A stretch of 5,482 bases of DNA, taken from NCBI GenBank assembly GCA_019242065.1, contig JAFAWJ010000328.1, positions 1-5,482 of the forward strand. The letters run 5' to 3'. Below are positions 1 through 5,482 of this stretch, one piece after another; positions within the stretch are counted from its first letter, which is position 1; each line of letters starts with the position of its first letter. This stretch comes from Chloroflexota bacterium. Lineage in GTDB: Bacteria > Chloroflexota > UBA6077 > CF-72. A program made the translations under genes and the position numbers. The notes below the pieces were generated by a model. The model worked only from the letters and a program-made list of their open reading frames with translations. It was not told where the DNA came from and ran no database searches.

Positions 1-825
1 CACGAAGTAGACGATGGCGATCGCCGCGGCCTGGGATGCGCCGCCCTGCGAGAACCCGATCGTGGCCGCGATCGCACCAGCCGTGATCGGCCCGACGACA
101 GGAATGATCTCCAGGATCCCGGTCAGAATGCCAACCCATAGCGAATACGGCAGGTGGAAGCCGTATTCCAGAATCAAAAATGTCACGGTCGTCATCAGGA
201 CGATCAGCACCAGTTGCCCGCGTAGATAGCGACCGAGGACGTGGTGGATCTGGAGTGCGAGGAATTCGACGTGTGCGCGATGGTTGTTCGGCACGAAGCG
301 CAGCACATAGCGAAAGAAGTTCGGGCCGTCCATCAGCAGGTAGGCCAGGCTCAGGAAAACCAGTAACAGTCCGAACAGGATGGAGAAGCCCGCCGAGATG
401 GCCTGGATCGCCTGCGACGGAGTGCCAAGCTCCTCCTGAATGGCGGCGTCCAGACGACGGCCCAGCTCACGCGAGCTCATGTTCTGGCCGAGCATGTCGA
501 GATCCTGACCACCAGTCAGCTTCTCGACGACCGACTGGACGATGCTCGGGCTCTCGCGCTCCAGGGCGCGGACCTCGAAGTTGACGCGTGCGCCGGCGAG
601 CAGGATCACGGTGCCACACACGATCAACACGACGACGAACACCGCAATCGCCGCCAGCCGTCGGTGCATGCCTGTGCGTTCAGCCAGCTCGTCGACCAGC
701 GGGCTCAGGACATAGGCAAGGATGCCCGCCACGATGAACGGTGGTAGGACGCCGCGCGCCACCCACAGCAGCGTCACCAGGGCGGCGAGCACCAACCACT
801 TCGACACGCTGGTGCCGAAGATCAC
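1..825 (-). CDS. AI-2E family (UPF0118) transporter, C-terminus beyond left edge
   Basis: Reading the minus strand from GTG at 825-823 gives 275 uninterrupted residues that run off the window at position 1. Usual family length is about 340-400, so most of the protein is present. It begins VIFGTSVSKW. Family hallmarks are PPFIVAGILAYVLSPLVDEL (residues 28-47), DGPNFFRYVLRFVP (166-179), GRYLRGQ (198-204) and the C-terminal block with GILTGILEIIPVVGPITAG (232-250). Hydrophobic segments lie near residues 8-24, 26-43, 57-78, 146-164, 205-222, 228-258 and from 263 to the edge, which indicates an inner-membrane protein. Known members export autoinducer-2 or act as ion antiporters or other exporters, so the substrate is unassigned. 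The frame stays open upstream of 825 (another GTG at 900), but the family-like sequence starts near 825 and a -10-like hexamer sits just before it. No Shine-Dalgarno motif is visible. It is divergent from the acyltransferase gene, and any functional link is speculative. Confidence 0.9.
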   Translation of the reverse strand, partial: MIFGTSVSKWLVLAALVTLLWVARGVLPPFIVAGILAYVLSPLVDELAERTGMHRRLAAIAVFVVVLIVCGTVILLAGARVNFEVRALERESPSIVQSVVEKLTGGQDLDMLGQNMSSRELGRRLDAAIQEELGTPSQAIQAISAGFSILFGLLLVFLSLAYLLMDGPNFFRYVLRFVPNNHRAHVEFLALQIHHVLGRYLRGQLVLIVLMTTVTFLILEYGFHLPYSLWVGILTGILEIIPVVGPITAGAIAATIGFSQGGASQAAAIAIVYFV

Positions 826-849
826 GCCGAGAGTGTACGGTTTGCAGGC
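826..849. promoter_or_regulatory. Candidate symmetric bidirectional promoter with leaderless starts
   Basis: The gap between the divergent genes is only 24 bp. On the plus strand TACGGT (836-841) matches the TANNNT -10 pattern and ends 8 bases before the ATG at 850. On the minus strand TACACT (837 down to 832) also matches and ends 6 bases before the GTG at 825. The two hexamers overlap at the self-complementary TA (836-837). A start site about 7 bases past each -10 would fall at or next to each start codon, so both transcripts could be leaderless; this agrees with the absence of a Shine-Dalgarno motif on either side. No convincing -35 element is seen in either direction. It is inferred from sequence only, and the start codons themselves are not certain. 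Confidence 0.45.
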
Positions 850-1665
850 ATGACGCAGTCCGCGGCGACACGCTCCGGTGTGACAGTCCGCGACATTCAC
901 GGAGTCGACGAGCTGCGCGCCTGTCAGTCGCTCCAGCGCAAGGCCTGGGGCATCACCGAGGATGGTTACGTCATGCCCGTGGCGACCATGGCCGCCGCAC
1001 AGCGTGTCGGCGGGCTGATCCTGGGCGCCTTCGACGCCGACGCGCGGCTGCTCGGGTTCGCCTTCGCCTTTCTGGGCAAACTCGACGACCAGCTGATCCT
1101 GTGGTCGCAGCTGACAGGCGTCCATCCGGCCCAGCAGAGTACTGGCGTTGGCCGCCTGCTCAAACTCGAGCAGCGCCGCCGCGCAGGCGAGATGGGACTG
1201 GACAGCATCGCCTGGGCGTTCGACCCGCTCCAGGCCAGTAATGCCGCCTTCAACCTCGGAGTCCTCGGCGCCAGAAGCCGCCTGTACGAACTGGACCTGT
1301 ACGGGTCGCGCTCTGATGCACTCAACGTCGGTCTGGCCACGGATCGGCTGATTGCCGAGTGGTCGACGCACGGCGACACCGGCGGACGGACCTTGCCCTG
1401 GTCAGACGCCAGCGACCTGATCGAGACACGCGACGGCGAGGTGTCGAGCGTCCGTGCGGCGGACAGCGCAACCGAGCATCTGCACATCGAGATCCCACCC
1501 AACCTCTCCCGAGTGAAAAGCGGCGGACCGCCGAATTCGGCTCACAAGTGGCAGAACGCCCTGCGCCAGGCCTTTCAGGTCGCGTTCGCCGATGGCTTCG
1601 TCGCCGTCGGCTTCACCCGTCAGGATCCATTCCACCCGAGATACGTGCTGGAGCGCAGCCCATGA
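850..1665 (+). CDS. COG3375-type GNAT acyltransferase, probable amino-acid N-acyltransferase
   Basis: A 271-residue protein. The GNAT fold shows in the acyl-CoA pyrophosphate-binding loop QSTGVGRLLK (residues 96-105) after the beta-4 stretch QLILWSQLTGVHP (81-93). This is followed by SIAWAFDPLQASNAAFNLG (119-137), a stretch typical of the COG3375 'predicted GNAT' group. Residues 210-256 (LHIEIPPNLS, then ALRQAFQVAFADGF and VAVGFTR) form the C-terminal part characteristic of that longer family. GNAT enzymes move an acyl group from acyl-CoA to an amine. In the known D- to L-amino acid conversion route a GNAT protein encoded beside the racemase succinylates the D-amino acid, and that role is inferred here from gene order. 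Substrate and acyl donor are not readable from sequence. ATG 850 is chosen; GTG 880 (codon 11) is an alternative. There is no well-spaced Shine-Dalgarno motif at either start. Its stop overlaps the racemase start (ATGA), indicating coupled translation. Cytoplasmic; no signal peptide. Confidence 0.85.
   Translation: MTQSAATRSGVTVRDIHGVDELRACQSLQRKAWGITEDGYVMPVATMAAAQRVGGLILGAFDADARLLGFAFAFLGKLDDQLILWSQLTGVHPAQQSTGVGRLLKLEQRRRAGEMGLDSIAWAFDPLQASNAAFNLGVLGARSRLYELDLYGSRSDALNVGLATDRLIAEWSTHGDTGGRTLPWSDASDLIETRDGEVSSVRAADSATEHLHIEIPPNLSRVKSGGPPNSAHKWQNALRQAFQVAFADGFVAVGFTRQDPFHPRYVLERSP
1650..1653 (+). promoter_or_regulatory. Shine-Dalgarno for the racemase gene, inside the GNAT gene
   Basis: GGAG lies 8 bases before the ATG at 1662, within the last codons of the acyltransferase gene. 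This spacing supports ATG 1662 as the racemase start rather than the much earlier in-frame ATG at 1359. Translation from 1359 would add about 100 residues of arginine-rich, non-homologous sequence. Confidence 0.6.
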
Positions 1666-2816
1666 CGCACACCCTCCAATCGGTCGAGCTCTACCTGGTC
1701 CGACTGCCGTTGATTCGGCCGTTCACGACCTCCAGTCATACCAAGGACCATCTCGACCACATCCTGATCCGGGCCCGCGACGAGCACGGGGCCGACGGCT
1801 GGGGCGAATGTGCGAGCGCCGCCGACCCGTATTACTGCTCTGAAACGACCGAGTCGTCCTGGCACATGCTGCGCGACTTCCTGATTCCCGAGCTGCTCGG
1901 CGTCGCTTGGGACCATCCTGACGCGGCCGCCGCCACCTGGGCCAAGGTGCGCGGCAACAACTTCGCCAAGGCCGGCCTCGAAATGGCTTGCTGGGACCTG
2001 TACACCCGCGGCCGCGACGAGTCCATCGCCGACGCCCTGGGCGGCACCCGCCGCGAGATCTATTCCGGCGTCAGCCTGGGCATCGAACCAACCATCGCAG
2101 GTCTCCTCGAGCAGGTCGAGCGCTTCCTGGACCAGGGCTATCGTCGCATCAAGATGAAGATCGGCCCCGGTCGGGACCTGGAGTATCTGCGCGCCGTTCG
2201 CGAGCGGTGGCCCGACATCCTGCTCATGGCCGACGCCAATTCCGCCTACAGCCTCGAGGATCCGACCCACGTCGCCGCCCTGCGCGCGCTCGACGACCTG
2301 AACCTGATGATGATCGAGCAGCCACTGGCCGACGACGACATCGTCGATCACGCCCGCCTGCAGGCAGAGCTGGCGACGCCCATCTGTCTCGACGAAAGCA
2401 TCCACTCGGAACACGACGCGCGTAAAGCCCTGGACCTGGGCAGCTGTCGCATCATCAACATCAAAGTCAGTCGTGTGGGTGGCCTCAGCGAGGCGCGGCG
2501 GATCCACGACGTGTGTCTGAAGCGTGAAGTGCCCGTGTGGTGCGGCGGCATGCACGAGTTCGGCATCGGCCGCGCCGCGAACGTGGCGATCTCGAGTCTG
2601 CCGGGTTTCACCCTGCCTGGCGATGTCTCGGGCTCCGACCGCGCCTATCGCGAGGACATCGTCGATCCCCCGATTCGGGCGCACGCCGGCGCCATCGACG
2701 TGCCCTATGCTCGACCCGGCCTCGGCTTCGACGCCAACCTCGAACGCATCCAGACCCGCCGCGTGCGCGAGCTGGTCCTCGAAGCTCGGCGTCCACTGGC
2801 GGCGACACACGCGTGA
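1662..2816 (+). CDS. N-acylamino acid racemase / o-succinylbenzoate synthase-type enolase-superfamily enzyme
   Basis: A 384-residue protein of full family length. The N-terminal capping domain (about 1-125) carries WGEC (47-50). The barrel domain carries the muconate-lactonizing subgroup catalytic set: KMK (K164, K166), metal ligands D191 (DANSAY), E219 (IEQP) and D244 (CLDES), and the opposite-face base K268 (NIKVSRVGG). Downstream, CGGM.EFGIGRAANVA (294-309) and FTLPGDVSGSDR (316-327) are signatures of the NSAR/OSBS subgroup, close to Amycolatopsis N-acylamino acid racemase as I remember it. Two lysines facing each other across the active site permit 1,1-proton transfer, i.e. racemisation of N-acylamino acids. 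Many relatives also make o-succinylbenzoate for menaquinone, but no other men gene is nearby, whereas an acyltransferase and an amidohydrolase flank it, so racemase is preferred. It starts at ATG 1662, overlapping the upstream stop; its TGA overlaps the next gene's GTG. Unusual pocket residues are H298 and A328. Cytoplasmic, Mg-dependent. Confidence 0.88.
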   Translation: MTHTLQSVELYLVRLPLIRPFTTSSHTKDHLDHILIRARDEHGADGWGECASAADPYYCSETTESSWHMLRDFLIPELLGVAWDHPDAAAATWAKVRGNNFAKAGLEMACWDLYTRGRDESIADALGGTRREIYSGVSLGIEPTIAGLLEQVERFLDQGYRRIKMKIGPGRDLEYLRAVRERWPDILLMADANSAYSLEDPTHVAALRALDDLNLMMIEQPLADDDIVDHARLQAELATPICLDESIHSEHDARKALDLGSCRIINIKVSRVGGLSEARRIHDVCLKREVPVWCGGMHEFGIGRAANVAISSLPGFTLPGDVSGSDRAYREDIVDPPIRAHAGAIDVPYARPGLGFDANLERIQTRRVRELVLEARRPLAATHA

Positions 2817-3979
2817 GCGGCGCCGAGCTCACCGCCAGCCTGCGCCCGGAGCTGGAGCCGCGCTGTCAGGAGATGGTCGACCTGCTCGGGGAGCTGGTGT
2901 GCCTCGAGTCACCCTCCGACGACACTCCGTCGTTGGAGCGATTCGCAGCCAGACTCCAGTCGCTGTTCAGCGTCTTCGGCAATATCGAACGAATTGCTAC
3001 CGGCGATCCGCAACGCGGTCCCCATCTGCGACTGACGCTCGATGGGCACACCGGCGACGGCGACGGCCAGCACGCCGTGGCGCTGTGTCACTACGACACG
3101 GTGTGGTCGCTCGGCACGCTGGAGCGCATTCCGTTCAGCGTGGACGCCGCCGGCGTCGCGCGCGGGCCGGGCTGCTTCGACATGAAGGGCGGCATCGTCG
3201 TCCTGTACTTCGCGCTCCAGGCGCTGCGCGTCCGCGGACTGCGACCCGCCCGACCGTTGAAAGTCCTGTTCACCTGCGACGAGGAGGTCGGGAGTCCCAC
3301 CTCGCGAGCGCTCATCGAATCCACGGCCACCGGCGCCGCGGTTGCGTATGTCCTGGAGTCGCCGCTGCCGGGTGGCACGCTCAAGACCGCCCGCAAGGGC
3401 ACCGGCGACTTCGTCGTGCGCATCGTCGGTCGCGCGGCGCACGCCGGCGTCGAACCCCAGAAGGGCATCAGCGCCACGGGCGAGTTGGCGCATCAGATCC
3501 TGGCGCTGCACGCGCTCAACGATTACGCGGTCGGCACCACCGTCAACGTCGGCGTGGTGCAGGGTGGCACGCGACCCAACGTCGTCGCCGCCGAAGCCGA
3601 GGCCCAGGTGGACATCCGCGTCGAGACGCTGGCTGAGGCCGACCGCCTCGAAGCCGCCATCCGCGGTTTGCAGCCACACCTGCCAGGCGCGGTCCTGGAG
3701 ATTGACGGCGGCCTGAACCGACCGCCGATGGAACGTTCGGCAGCCATGGCCGCGTTGTTCGAGCAGGCGCGCCGCAACGCGGCGGCAATGGGTGTGGACC
3801 TGCAGGAGGGCAGCACCGGCGGCGGCTCAGACGGCAACTTCACCGCCGCCATGGGCGTCCCGACGCTGGACGGACTCGGACCCGAAGGCGAGGGCGCCCA
3901 CGCCGCCCACGAACACGTCGACACCGACAGCTTCCCCAGGCGCGTGGCGCTGCTCGCCGGGCTACTCGTCGATCCGTAA
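2813..3979 (+). CDS. M20 metallopeptidase/amidohydrolase, CPG2-like; probable N-acyl-L-amino acid hydrolase
   Basis: Starting at GTG 2813, which overlaps the racemase TGA (GTGA), gives 388 residues, the usual M20 length. Recognisable elements in order: CHYDTVW (H93, D95), RGPGCFDMKGG (bridging D123), TCDEEVGS (catalytic E157, metal E158), VLESP (E182), the lid/dimerisation domain from about residue 195 with RAAHAGVEP (H210) and GGTRPNVV (251-258), then GGGSDGN (336-342) and GEGAHAAHEH (H363). All five zinc ligands and the general base are therefore present, so the enzyme should be active. The layout follows carboxypeptidase G2 of Pseudomonas, which removes C-terminal L-glutamate from N-acyl compounds such as folates. 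Beside an N-acyltransferase and an N-acylamino acid racemase the likely job is release of the free L-amino acid. No signal peptide is evident at this start, so it is probably cytoplasmic. The open frame continues upstream of 2813 inside the racemase gene, but that extension is arginine-rich and unlike the family. The Shine-Dalgarno motif is weak, so translation probably relies on coupling. Confidence 0.88.
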   Translation: MSGAELTASLRPELEPRCQEMVDLLGELVCLESPSDDTPSLERFAARLQSLFSVFGNIERIATGDPQRGPHLRLTLDGHTGDGDGQHAVALCHYDTVWSLGTLERIPFSVDAAGVARGPGCFDMKGGIVVLYFALQALRVRGLRPARPLKVLFTCDEEVGSPTSRALIESTATGAAVAYVLESPLPGGTLKTARKGTGDFVVRIVGRAAHAGVEPQKGISATGELAHQILALHALNDYAVGTTVNVGVVQGGTRPNVVAAEAEAQVDIRVETLAEADRLEAAIRGLQPHLPGAVLEIDGGLNRPPMERSAAMAALFEQARRNAAAMGVDLQEGSTGGGSDGNFTAAMGVPTLDGLGPEGEGAHAAHEHVDTDSFPRRVALLAGLLVDP

Positions 3980-4023
3980 CTGCCGCTACGGTACAGTGTG
4001 GCCCCTTGGTGGTCACCCCGAAC
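3980..4023 (+). promoter_or_regulatory. 44-bp gap: -10-like TACGGTACAGT and a Shine-Dalgarno-like stretch
   Basis: Between the hydrolase stop and the chosen large-subunit start lies TACGGTACAGT (3987-3997), two overlapping TANNNT hexamers. The first, TACGGT, is identical to the hexamer before the GNAT gene. GGTGGTC (4008-4014) resembles the anti-Shine-Dalgarno complement GGTGATC and sits 9 bases before ATG 4024. The gap could hold a weak internal promoter, or merely be an operon spacer; no hairpin terminator with a T run is visible. Confidence 0.3.
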
Positions 4024-5482
4024 ATGCTGGGTCTGCCCATCAAGCGCGGCGAGGATCCGCGCCTGGTGTCTGGCAATGGTGCGTACCTCGAGGACCTCGC
4101 CCTGGCGGGCGTCGTGCACCTCGTCTTCGGGCGCAGCCCGCACGCGCATGCTCGCATCACGCGCATCGACGTCTCCGCCGCGCGCGACATGCCCGGCGTG
4201 CTGGCGGTCCTCACGGGCGACGACGTCGACGCCATCCTGCCCGTCGACCTGCCCAAGGACTGGCCGCCGTTCGAGGTCAACAATCCGCCGCCCAACAAGA
4301 TCCTCGCCCGTGACAAGGTGCGGTTCGTCGGCGAGCCGTTTGTCGGCGTGGTGGCCACGTCGCGCGCCATTGCCCAGGACGCGATCGACGCCGTCGAGAT
4401 CGACTACGAGCCGCTGCCCGCCGTCTCCGATCCGGAGGCCGCCCTCGCGCCCGACGCGCCCCTTCTGTATGAAGAGCTCGGCACCAATCTGGCCCATCAC
4501 CTGCTCAAGAGCGGCGGCAATGTCGAGGAAGTCTTCAGTCGATCCGACATCCAGGTCGTCTCCGGCCGCTTCGACAATCCGCGCGTCCTGCCGGTCCCGA
4601 TGGAGACACGCGGCGCGGCCGCGACCTTCGACCCCGGCACGCGCGAGCTGACTTTCTGGGCCAGCACCCAGTTTCCGCACACCTTCAGGACGATGCTCGC
4701 CGGCATCCTCGATCTGCCCGAGACCAACGTGCGGGTCATCGCGCCAGATGTCGGCGGCGGCTTCGGCGCCAAGATCGACTTCACCGCCGAAGACGTCCTG
4801 ACCGGCCTACTGGCGATGCGACTGCGCCGACCGGTGCGCTGGGTGGAGGAACGTCGCGAGAACTTCATCAACATGGTGCACGGTCGGGGTCAGACGGACT
4901 ACGTCGACGCCGCCGTCACGTCCGACGGCGAGATCGTCGGTCTGAAGATCCGCGCCATCGCCGACCTGGGCGGCCGCTACAACCTGAACACGCCAGGCAT
5001 TGCCACACTCACCCCGGTCGTCCTGCCCGGTCCGTATCGAACGCCCAACATCGAGTTCAGCCTGGACGGTGTCTACACCAACAAGACACCGGTCGGCGCC
5101 TACCGCGGCGCGGGTCGTCCCGAAGCGACGTACCTGGTCGAACGCATCGTCGACGTCGTGGCCGACACATTGCGGCTTGACCCGGCCGAGGTCCGCCGCA
5201 AGAACTTCCTGCGCCCCGAGGAGTTCCCCTACAAGACGCCGATGGGCACCTCCTACGACACCGGCGACTATGCCCCGGCCCTGGATCGCGTGCTGGACAT
5301 GGCCGGTTACGCGGACCTGCGTCGCCAGCAGGCCGCCTGGCGGGACGATCCGAGCCAGCCCCTGATCGGCATTGGCATTTCGGGCTACCTGGAGATCTGC
5401 GCGTTCGGTCCGTGGGAAAGCGCTACGGTGCGCGTTGAAAAATCCGGCAAGGTGACCCTGCTGGCCGGCACGTCGCCCCACG
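4024..5482 (+). CDS. Xanthine dehydrogenase/CoxL-family molybdopterin-binding large subunit, truncated by right edge
   Basis: 486 residues are visible of a family that is usually about 750-800 long. The N-terminal aldehyde oxidase/xanthine dehydrogenase hammerhead domain (about 1-130) shows [19 protein letters not shown] (7-25), RSPHAHARI (37-45) and [13 protein letters not shown] (98-110). The molybdopterin-binding domain follows with [10 protein letters not shown] (241-250), [13 protein letters not shown] (269-281) and AYRGAGRPE (359-367). The window ends at LLAGTSPH, just where GQGHET-type cofactor residues normally follow, so the catalytic glutamate region lies outside. AYRGAGR rather than AYRCSFR marks the form II/CoxL-like group, so carbon monoxide dehydrogenase activity is not supported. 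These enzymes hydroxylate aldehydes or N-heterocycles using a Mo-cytosine-dinucleotide cofactor with FeS and FAD partners, which are not in the window and may lie downstream. ATG 4024 fits the usual N-terminal length; GTG 4009 and TTG 4006 are in-frame alternatives. It may be cotranscribed with the hydrolase, but the substrate is unknown. Confidence 0.9.

Follow-up and report, generated by a model that had tools for sequence, protein, structure and literature searches.

The window analysed here, a stretch of 5,482 nucleotides from a Chloroflexota bacterium (contig JAFAWJ010000328.1), carries a cluster of three genes that encode a GNAT-fold N-acyltransferase, an enolase-superfamily enzyme of the N-succinylamino acid racemase/o-succinylbenzoate synthase type (NSAR/OSBS, hereafter the racemase) and an M20 metallohydrolase. 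Judging from the sequences, the trio is likely to form an acylation/racemisation/deacylation module that salvages D-amino acids as L-amino acids, with the racemase also standing in for MenC in menaquinone synthesis.

In the proposed mechanism, the GNAT enzyme would transfer an acyl group, probably succinyl and possibly acetyl, from acyl-coenzyme A (acyl-CoA) onto a free D-amino acid. The N-acyl amino acid would be racemised by the Lys166/Lys268 pair acting on a Mg2+-bound enolate, and the M20 enzyme would release the L-amino acid from its N-acyl-L form by hydrolysis. D-selective acylation together with L-selective hydrolysis would make the flow one-way, and the same racemase would make o-succinylbenzoate for menaquinone in place of MenC. 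In Geobacillus kaustophilus, a succinyl-CoA:D-amino acid N-succinyltransferase, an NSAR and an N-succinyl-L-amino acid desuccinylase reportedly convert D- to L-amino acids, in work attributed to Sakai and colleagues in 2006. We infer the reactions, their direction, the acyl group, the substrates and the dual role, of which the direction, acyl group and substrates follow this precedent by analogy.

Three overlapping genes and their predicted products

The cluster consists of three open frames that follow one another head to tail on the + strand, namely the acyltransferase gene at 850-1665 (271 aa, ATG start), the racemase gene at 1662-2816 (384 aa, ATG start) and the hydrolase gene at 2813-3979 (388 aa, GTG start). 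They are joined by two overlaps of 4 bases on the + strand: ATGA at 1662-1665 holds the GNAT stop and the racemase start, and GTGA at 2813-2816 holds the racemase stop and the hydrolase start. The first-pass annotation had described such overlaps between these three types of gene and had considered each active site intact; both points stand, with the frames open and the motifs present in all three proteins.

The racemase was assigned by family and PDB matches. It contains the domains PF13378/PF02746 and reaches 343.6 bits against TIGR01928, a model labelled as the MenC equivalog (cut-off 200.65). Its best solved relative is the N-acylamino acid racemase of Amycolatopsis (1sja, E 3.2e-97), and 11 of the 14 best PDB matches go by the name of N-acylamino acid racemase, o-succinylbenzoate synthase or both, the other three bearing generic names. 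The catalytic and metal-binding residues are present (Lys164/Lys166, Asp191, Glu219, Asp244 and Lys268). Furthermore, Arg271, three residues past the second catalytic Lys, aligns with an Arg in 1sja and corresponds to Arg266 of the Amycolatopsis NSAR. The same position is Gln in PDB 7s8w, which otherwise aligns much as 1sja does and is presumably a mutant designed for the study of NSAR specificity.

The product of 850-1665 is predicted to be an acyl-CoA:amino acid N-acyltransferase. It had no match in Pfam (E 0.01) or NCBIfam, and a PDB sequence search returned nothing at E 10, so the call rests on its relatives, their source names and the predicted fold. The PF00583 cut-off was passed by four of the seven relatives scanned, and many of the listed homologues carry the source name 'predicted GNAT superfamily acetyltransferase'. 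In the predicted structure (mean pLDDT 89.2), residues 9-176 match GNAT folds and residues 177-271 form a C-terminal extension. The motif Q/R-x-x-G-x-G/A marks the CoA loop of GNAT enzymes; here it reads Q96-S-T-G99-V-G101, with Q96, G99 and G101 invariant across 37 aligned rows. One scan of viral contigs with the GNAT found no relative.

The hydrolase combines a catalytic domain (PF01546, 106 bits) with a dimerisation domain (PF07687, 74.2 bits), and its best solved relative is carboxypeptidase G2 (CPG2; 1cg2, E 1.9e-34). His93, Asp123, Glu157/Glu158, Glu182 and His363 align to the metal and base motifs of CPG2, and His210, Asn256 and Arg269 of the lid domain are kept; these would correspond to the zinc ligands, the catalytic Glu and the lid residues of CPG2 that hold the substrate carboxylate. 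Among the NCBIfam models shown, the protein stayed below every cut-off, including NF005602 (250.7 vs 357), NF005678 (231 vs 386), the glutamate carboxypeptidase model NF004788 (229.1 vs 349 bits) and the amidohydrolase model TIGR01891 (44.7 vs 153.75 bits).

Recurrence of the genes across genomes

Scanning a genome collection with the GNAT alignment returned four loci besides the window, three in Chloroflexota metagenome-assembled genomes (MAGs; loci L001-L003 of genomes G001-G003) and one in a planctomycete, an Isosphaeraceae MAG (G004). All three genes are present at 4/4 of these loci. The three Chloroflexota loci keep the gene order of the window, and the planctomycete has racemase-M20-GNAT; the earlier observation that the genes follow the order of the reactions therefore holds for the window and not for every locus. 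The residue three positions past the second catalytic Lys is Arg in 34/34 racemase matches from 45 loci (33 scored by pattern and one by eye, from about 20 genomes, some genes being doubled by overlapping loci), against 0/14 MenC proteins encoded in men operons. The pocket motif at residues 297-301 is MHEFG in the window, L001-L003 and L004, and MHEYG in L050.

The link between GNAT and racemase extends over the phylum. Among 400 Chloroflexota genomes, the GNAT was found in 131, the racemase over its cut-off in 153 and MenD in 149 at E<=1e-60 (148 over the cut-off); nine further genomes, in which the best GNAT match had an E between 1e-3 and 4e-5, were not counted. GNAT and racemase occur together in 126 genomes, with GNAT only in 5, racemase only in 27 and neither in 242, which gives an odds ratio of 226. 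For GNAT and MenD the odds ratio is 1.9 (p 0.004), and for racemase and MenD, which share 66 genomes, it is 1.5 (p 0.057). Fifty-nine genomes hold GNAT, racemase and MenD, 67 hold GNAT and racemase without MenD, and 80 hold MenD alone; of all 153 racemase-bearing genomes, 87 are without MenD at E<=1e-60. Since 67 genomes keep GNAT and racemase without MenD, the racemase is hardly only a menaquinone enzyme. The two genes lie within 3 kb in 48 of the 124 genomes with coordinates, and in 46 of these 48 they share one strand with the GNAT first. In Planctomycetota, the GNAT was found at E<=1e-15 in 24/255 genomes, the racemase lay in the flanks of nine of the 24 loci, with the Arg in 9/9, and the M20 gene in one, that of G004, which is counted here once more.

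At finer scale the arrangement varies. Within the class of G001, the GNAT is present in 5/29 genomes (G001-G003, G007 and G022). G007 and G022 have GNAT-racemase pairs with no M20 gene on the stretch seen; in G022 the racemase gene stands at the end of its contig, and another contig encodes an M20 protein 58% identical to that of the window. G007 yielded no M20 at E<=1e-40, and beside its pair are a GH1 and a cysteine-rich/Fer4 protein. The 30 best loci of the 400 genomes (flanks <=1.5 kb) include the racemase in 19 and M20 in 12. Larger regions around 20 of these loci showed M20-GNAT-racemase in two (L109, L110) and GNAT-racemase-M20 in one (L108). Six had GNAT-racemase without the cassette M20, one had M20-GNAT where the contig ends at the GNAT, and ten (L098-L107) had the GNAT without racemase or M20. 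The genomes of all these last ten have a TIGR01928 match over the cut-off elsewhere. At one of the ten (L105:8236-9504), the GNAT gene overlaps or abuts that of an Amidohydro_1 enzyme, which may be an alternative deacylase.

Of the three genes, that of the hydrolase is the least firmly tied to the others. M20 relatives were searched for in 80 genomes. The cassette genomes were G004, G192 and 43 of the 48 whose GNAT and racemase genes lie within 3 kb (five were left out), and the controls were 35 of the 80 MenD-only genomes. At E<=1e-70, a threshold chosen after the score lists had been seen, they were found in 18/45 cassette genomes vs 5/35 controls (Fisher p 0.014). Five MenD-only controls (G142, G163, G184, G191 and G198) have an M20 protein 50-57% identical, with neither GNAT nor cassette-type racemase. 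With M20 in only 18/45 cassette genomes, the third step may be optional or may be done elsewhere by other hydrolases. Ten neighbours from six loci, eight of them beside GNAT-racemase pairs that are without a CPG2-like M20, were scanned for another hydrolase, and no M20 was among them; the families beside those pairs were a recombinase, HTH, NUDIX, APH, two alpha/beta hydrolases and DUF4058, and one protein had no family.

Such loose linkage bears on whether salvage is the purpose at all. The module might instead handle N-acylated amino acids, detoxify by acylation or run from L to D, which we regard as unlikely. Stereoselectivity and acyl group are not readable from the sequences, and 27 of the 45 GNAT-racemase genomes are without an M20 relative at the threshold used, both of which leave room for these roles. 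However, a gene for an N-acyl amino acid hydrolase that overlaps the racemase gene points to the release of free amino acids, and the Geobacillus precedent reportedly runs from D to L.

The menaquinone pathway and the place of MenC

MenD and MenB score over their cut-offs in G001-G003, the three relatives of the window, and neither does so in the planctomycete G004. In G001-G004, G007 and G022, the only TIGR01928 match over the cut-off is the enzyme in the cluster of the GNAT, and no TIGR01927 match over the cut-off was found. A family scan of G001 revealed the clusters menB-menA-menE and menD-menH, menH being a contig-end fragment just under its cut-off; an upstream gene is a putative menF. 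The corresponding clusters of G002 and G003 were located by similarity to those of G001, with menB of G002 at a contig end. No enolase-superfamily gene lies in the six menD/menH and menB/menA/menE regions of the three genomes, families having been scanned for G001. The racemase would fit the MenC gap in three related MAGs, in which the other steps of the pathway are encoded.

By contrast, inspection of the MenD neighbourhoods of 20 MenD-only genomes showed an enolase-superfamily gene in the men cluster at 18 loci, near menB/menA and menE, and the remaining two loci are on short contigs (6.1 and 6.6 kb). At E<=1e-70, a profile of this men-operon MenC, built from 14 sequences of those loci, matched 65 of the 83 MenD genomes that lack the cassette-type racemase (51/69 after subtraction of the 14 that built the profile) vs 2 of the 66 that have it (G342 and G401). 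This threshold was also chosen after the score lists had been seen, and it undercounts, as G094 (7.5e-63) and G129 (1.1e-59), whose men operons contain an enolase-superfamily gene, fall short of it; moreover, the profile is not wholly MenC-specific, with 11/73 listed genomes that have none of the three genes also passing. The median -log10 E was 114 in MenD-only genomes, 51 in genomes with GNAT, racemase and MenD, and 52 in those with GNAT and racemase without MenD. Men-operon MenC and the cassette enzyme are thus nearly mutually exclusive in MenD genomes.

In a tree of 42 enolase-superfamily proteins, the 14 men-operon MenC form a clade of their own (100/99), as do the seven cassette enzymes (100/99). 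None of the 21 other rows, which came from G001-G004 and G007 and include a second copy of the G004 racemase, fell in the MenC clade. Three alternative MenC candidates (G001:C12, G003:C487 and G002:C125) were outside that clade.

Read together, the tree, the MenC counts and the GNAT linkage suggest that the cassette enzyme takes the place of MenC in genomes with MenD and stays with the GNAT in those where MenD is unseen. As men-operon MenC is near-absent beside the racemase in MenD genomes and none was found in the relatives, the racemase is probably bifunctional, that is, probably also the o-succinylbenzoate synthase of the cell. The lack of another MenC match in G001-G003, the 2/66 count and the TIGR01928 score would equally suit an enolase-superfamily gene that is simply MenC and whose acetyltransferase and peptidase neighbours are unrelated to it. 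We consider this improbable, because 87 of the 153 enzyme-bearing genomes are without MenD, as is G004, where MenB over the cut-off is absent too, and because the enzyme tracks the GNAT and not MenD. In addition, the partners stay together in three gene orders and the Arg is kept. The first-pass annotation had held that salvage would be refuted if the enzyme made only o-succinylbenzoate and the genome had no other menC: the second half holds by proxy, with none found in three relatives, and the first is opposed by the 67 genomes without MenD.

The converse possibility is that the module serves D-to-L salvage as its one function and that menaquinone synthesis relies on an unrecognised MenC encoded at another place in the genome. 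The GNAT-racemase co-occurrence agrees with it just as well; G001-G003 have 22, 28 and 21 PF13378 matches, most of them without single inspection, and for each genome no more than four candidates were scored with the MenC profile. Against it, the best MenC-profile match of G003 (C487) is one of the candidates outside the MenC clade, and the best MenC scores of G001 and G002 fall within the range seen for GNAT-racemase genomes without MenD, so that we hold this to be unlikely and prefer a racemase that serves both pathways.

Several observations weigh against the bifunctional salvage module. The GNAT is patchy in the class of G001, the M20 gene is scarce even in cassette genomes, and GNAT and racemase do not lie within 3 kb in 76 of the 124 genomes with coordinates. 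In Planctomycetota, no racemase was found within the flanks (<=1.5 kb) of 15 of the 24 GNAT loci. The phylum-wide searches scored the best 4 to 6 candidates per genome, so that misses are possible, and the co-occurrence counts and p-values ignore shared ancestry, with genome completeness not stated. Finally, the absence of MenC is read from draft MAGs of relatives, with clusters partly at contig ends, and not from the genome of the window itself.

Known systems, neighbouring genes and meaning

Like the Geobacillus pathway, the window encodes a GNAT, an NSAR/OSBS enzyme and an M20 enzyme together and in the same logical order. In contrast to it, the window belongs to a different phylum, and its hydrolase, CPG2-like and far under the TIGR01891 cut-off, may be of another M20 subfamily. 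The Geobacillus-type salvage proposed in the first-pass annotation thus keeps its core, in view of the trio at all four loci, the GNAT-racemase co-occurrence and the Arg, and is amended in two respects: the racemase probably has two functions and the hydrolase is loosely tied. The racemase shares the catalytic Lys pair, the metal ligands and the Arg with the Amycolatopsis NSAR/OSBS (1sja). Its MHEFG pocket differs from the MIETG of that enzyme, and the substrate range may be shifted. Compared with the men-operon MenC of other Chloroflexota, the cassette enzyme is of the same superfamily and likely catalyses the same OSBS reaction, but it falls in a separate clade, has the Arg and sits outside the men operon.

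RcNSAR/OSBS is an enzyme of Roseiflexus castenholzii, also in Chloroflexota. Kinetics are given for several NSAR/OSBS enzymes, RcNSAR/OSBS among them, in PMC8142540, where Sakai 2006 and Odokonyero 2018 are cited. According to PMC4215206, the racemase of Amycolatopsis later turned out to be an OSBS, and other enzymes catalyse both reactions. In Table 1 of PMC3914697, Deinococcus-Thermus is listed with MenC in 12/12 proteomes, an empty MenB cell and MqnA/C/D in 12, and MenC without MenB in that table fits racemases labelled MenC. The controls Thermus composti and Deinobacterium chartae scored over the TIGR01928 cut-off and were not among the MenD matches.

A different route is the DgcN-DgcA pathway. 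The racemase is far under the cut-off of the DgcA model (100.4 vs 400 bits), and DgcN is not known to be a GNAT. This D-glutamate pathway is described in PMC12363236 and PMC10845958; in the former, dgcN is the key gene of a pathway that racemises acidic D-amino acids irreversibly. The same text, a metagenome study, describes D-amino acid catabolism in Chloroflexi (PMC12363236).

Both genes that flank the cluster recur in 3/3 Chloroflexota loci. Upstream, a divergent membrane protein gene (window 1-839), whose own start is not fixed, adjoins the start of the GNAT gene and leaves scant space for two promoters in the gap; its product, presumably of the AI-2E transporter family, is kept in L001-L003 at 69-87% identity. 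Downstream, the large subunit of a molybdopterin-binding oxidoreductase is encoded on the same strand (4006-5481, cut by the window end) and begins 26 or 44 bases past the cassette, depending on the choice of start. Homologues 78-90% identical follow the cassette in L001, L002 and L003, and the next gene in L001 is a DNA methylase on the opposite strand. The G+C content is 67%. A scan of the window returned no promoter-like site and one terminator-like site on the - strand, the same as in shuffled sequences.

The system is of a known kind, to which the present analysis adds one more lineage and, at genome scale, a pattern in which MenC is apparently replaced. We lean, with reservation, towards a wider reading in which a large part of the Chloroflexota has lost the men-operon MenC and uses a GNAT-linked salvage racemase for both respiration and salvage, while in many members without MenD the enzyme would serve salvage alone and its 'menC' label would be wrong. 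TIGR01928 'menC' calls are unreliable in Chloroflexota, the equivalog label being probably wrong in the 87 genomes without MenD. The 59 GNAT-racemase genomes with MenD and the 67 without it give a setting in which the retention of one enzyme for two pathways can be tested. Organic matter that breaks down slowly contains D-amino acids, and the Geobacillus route would be extended to Chloroflexota and Planctomycetota known from MAGs.

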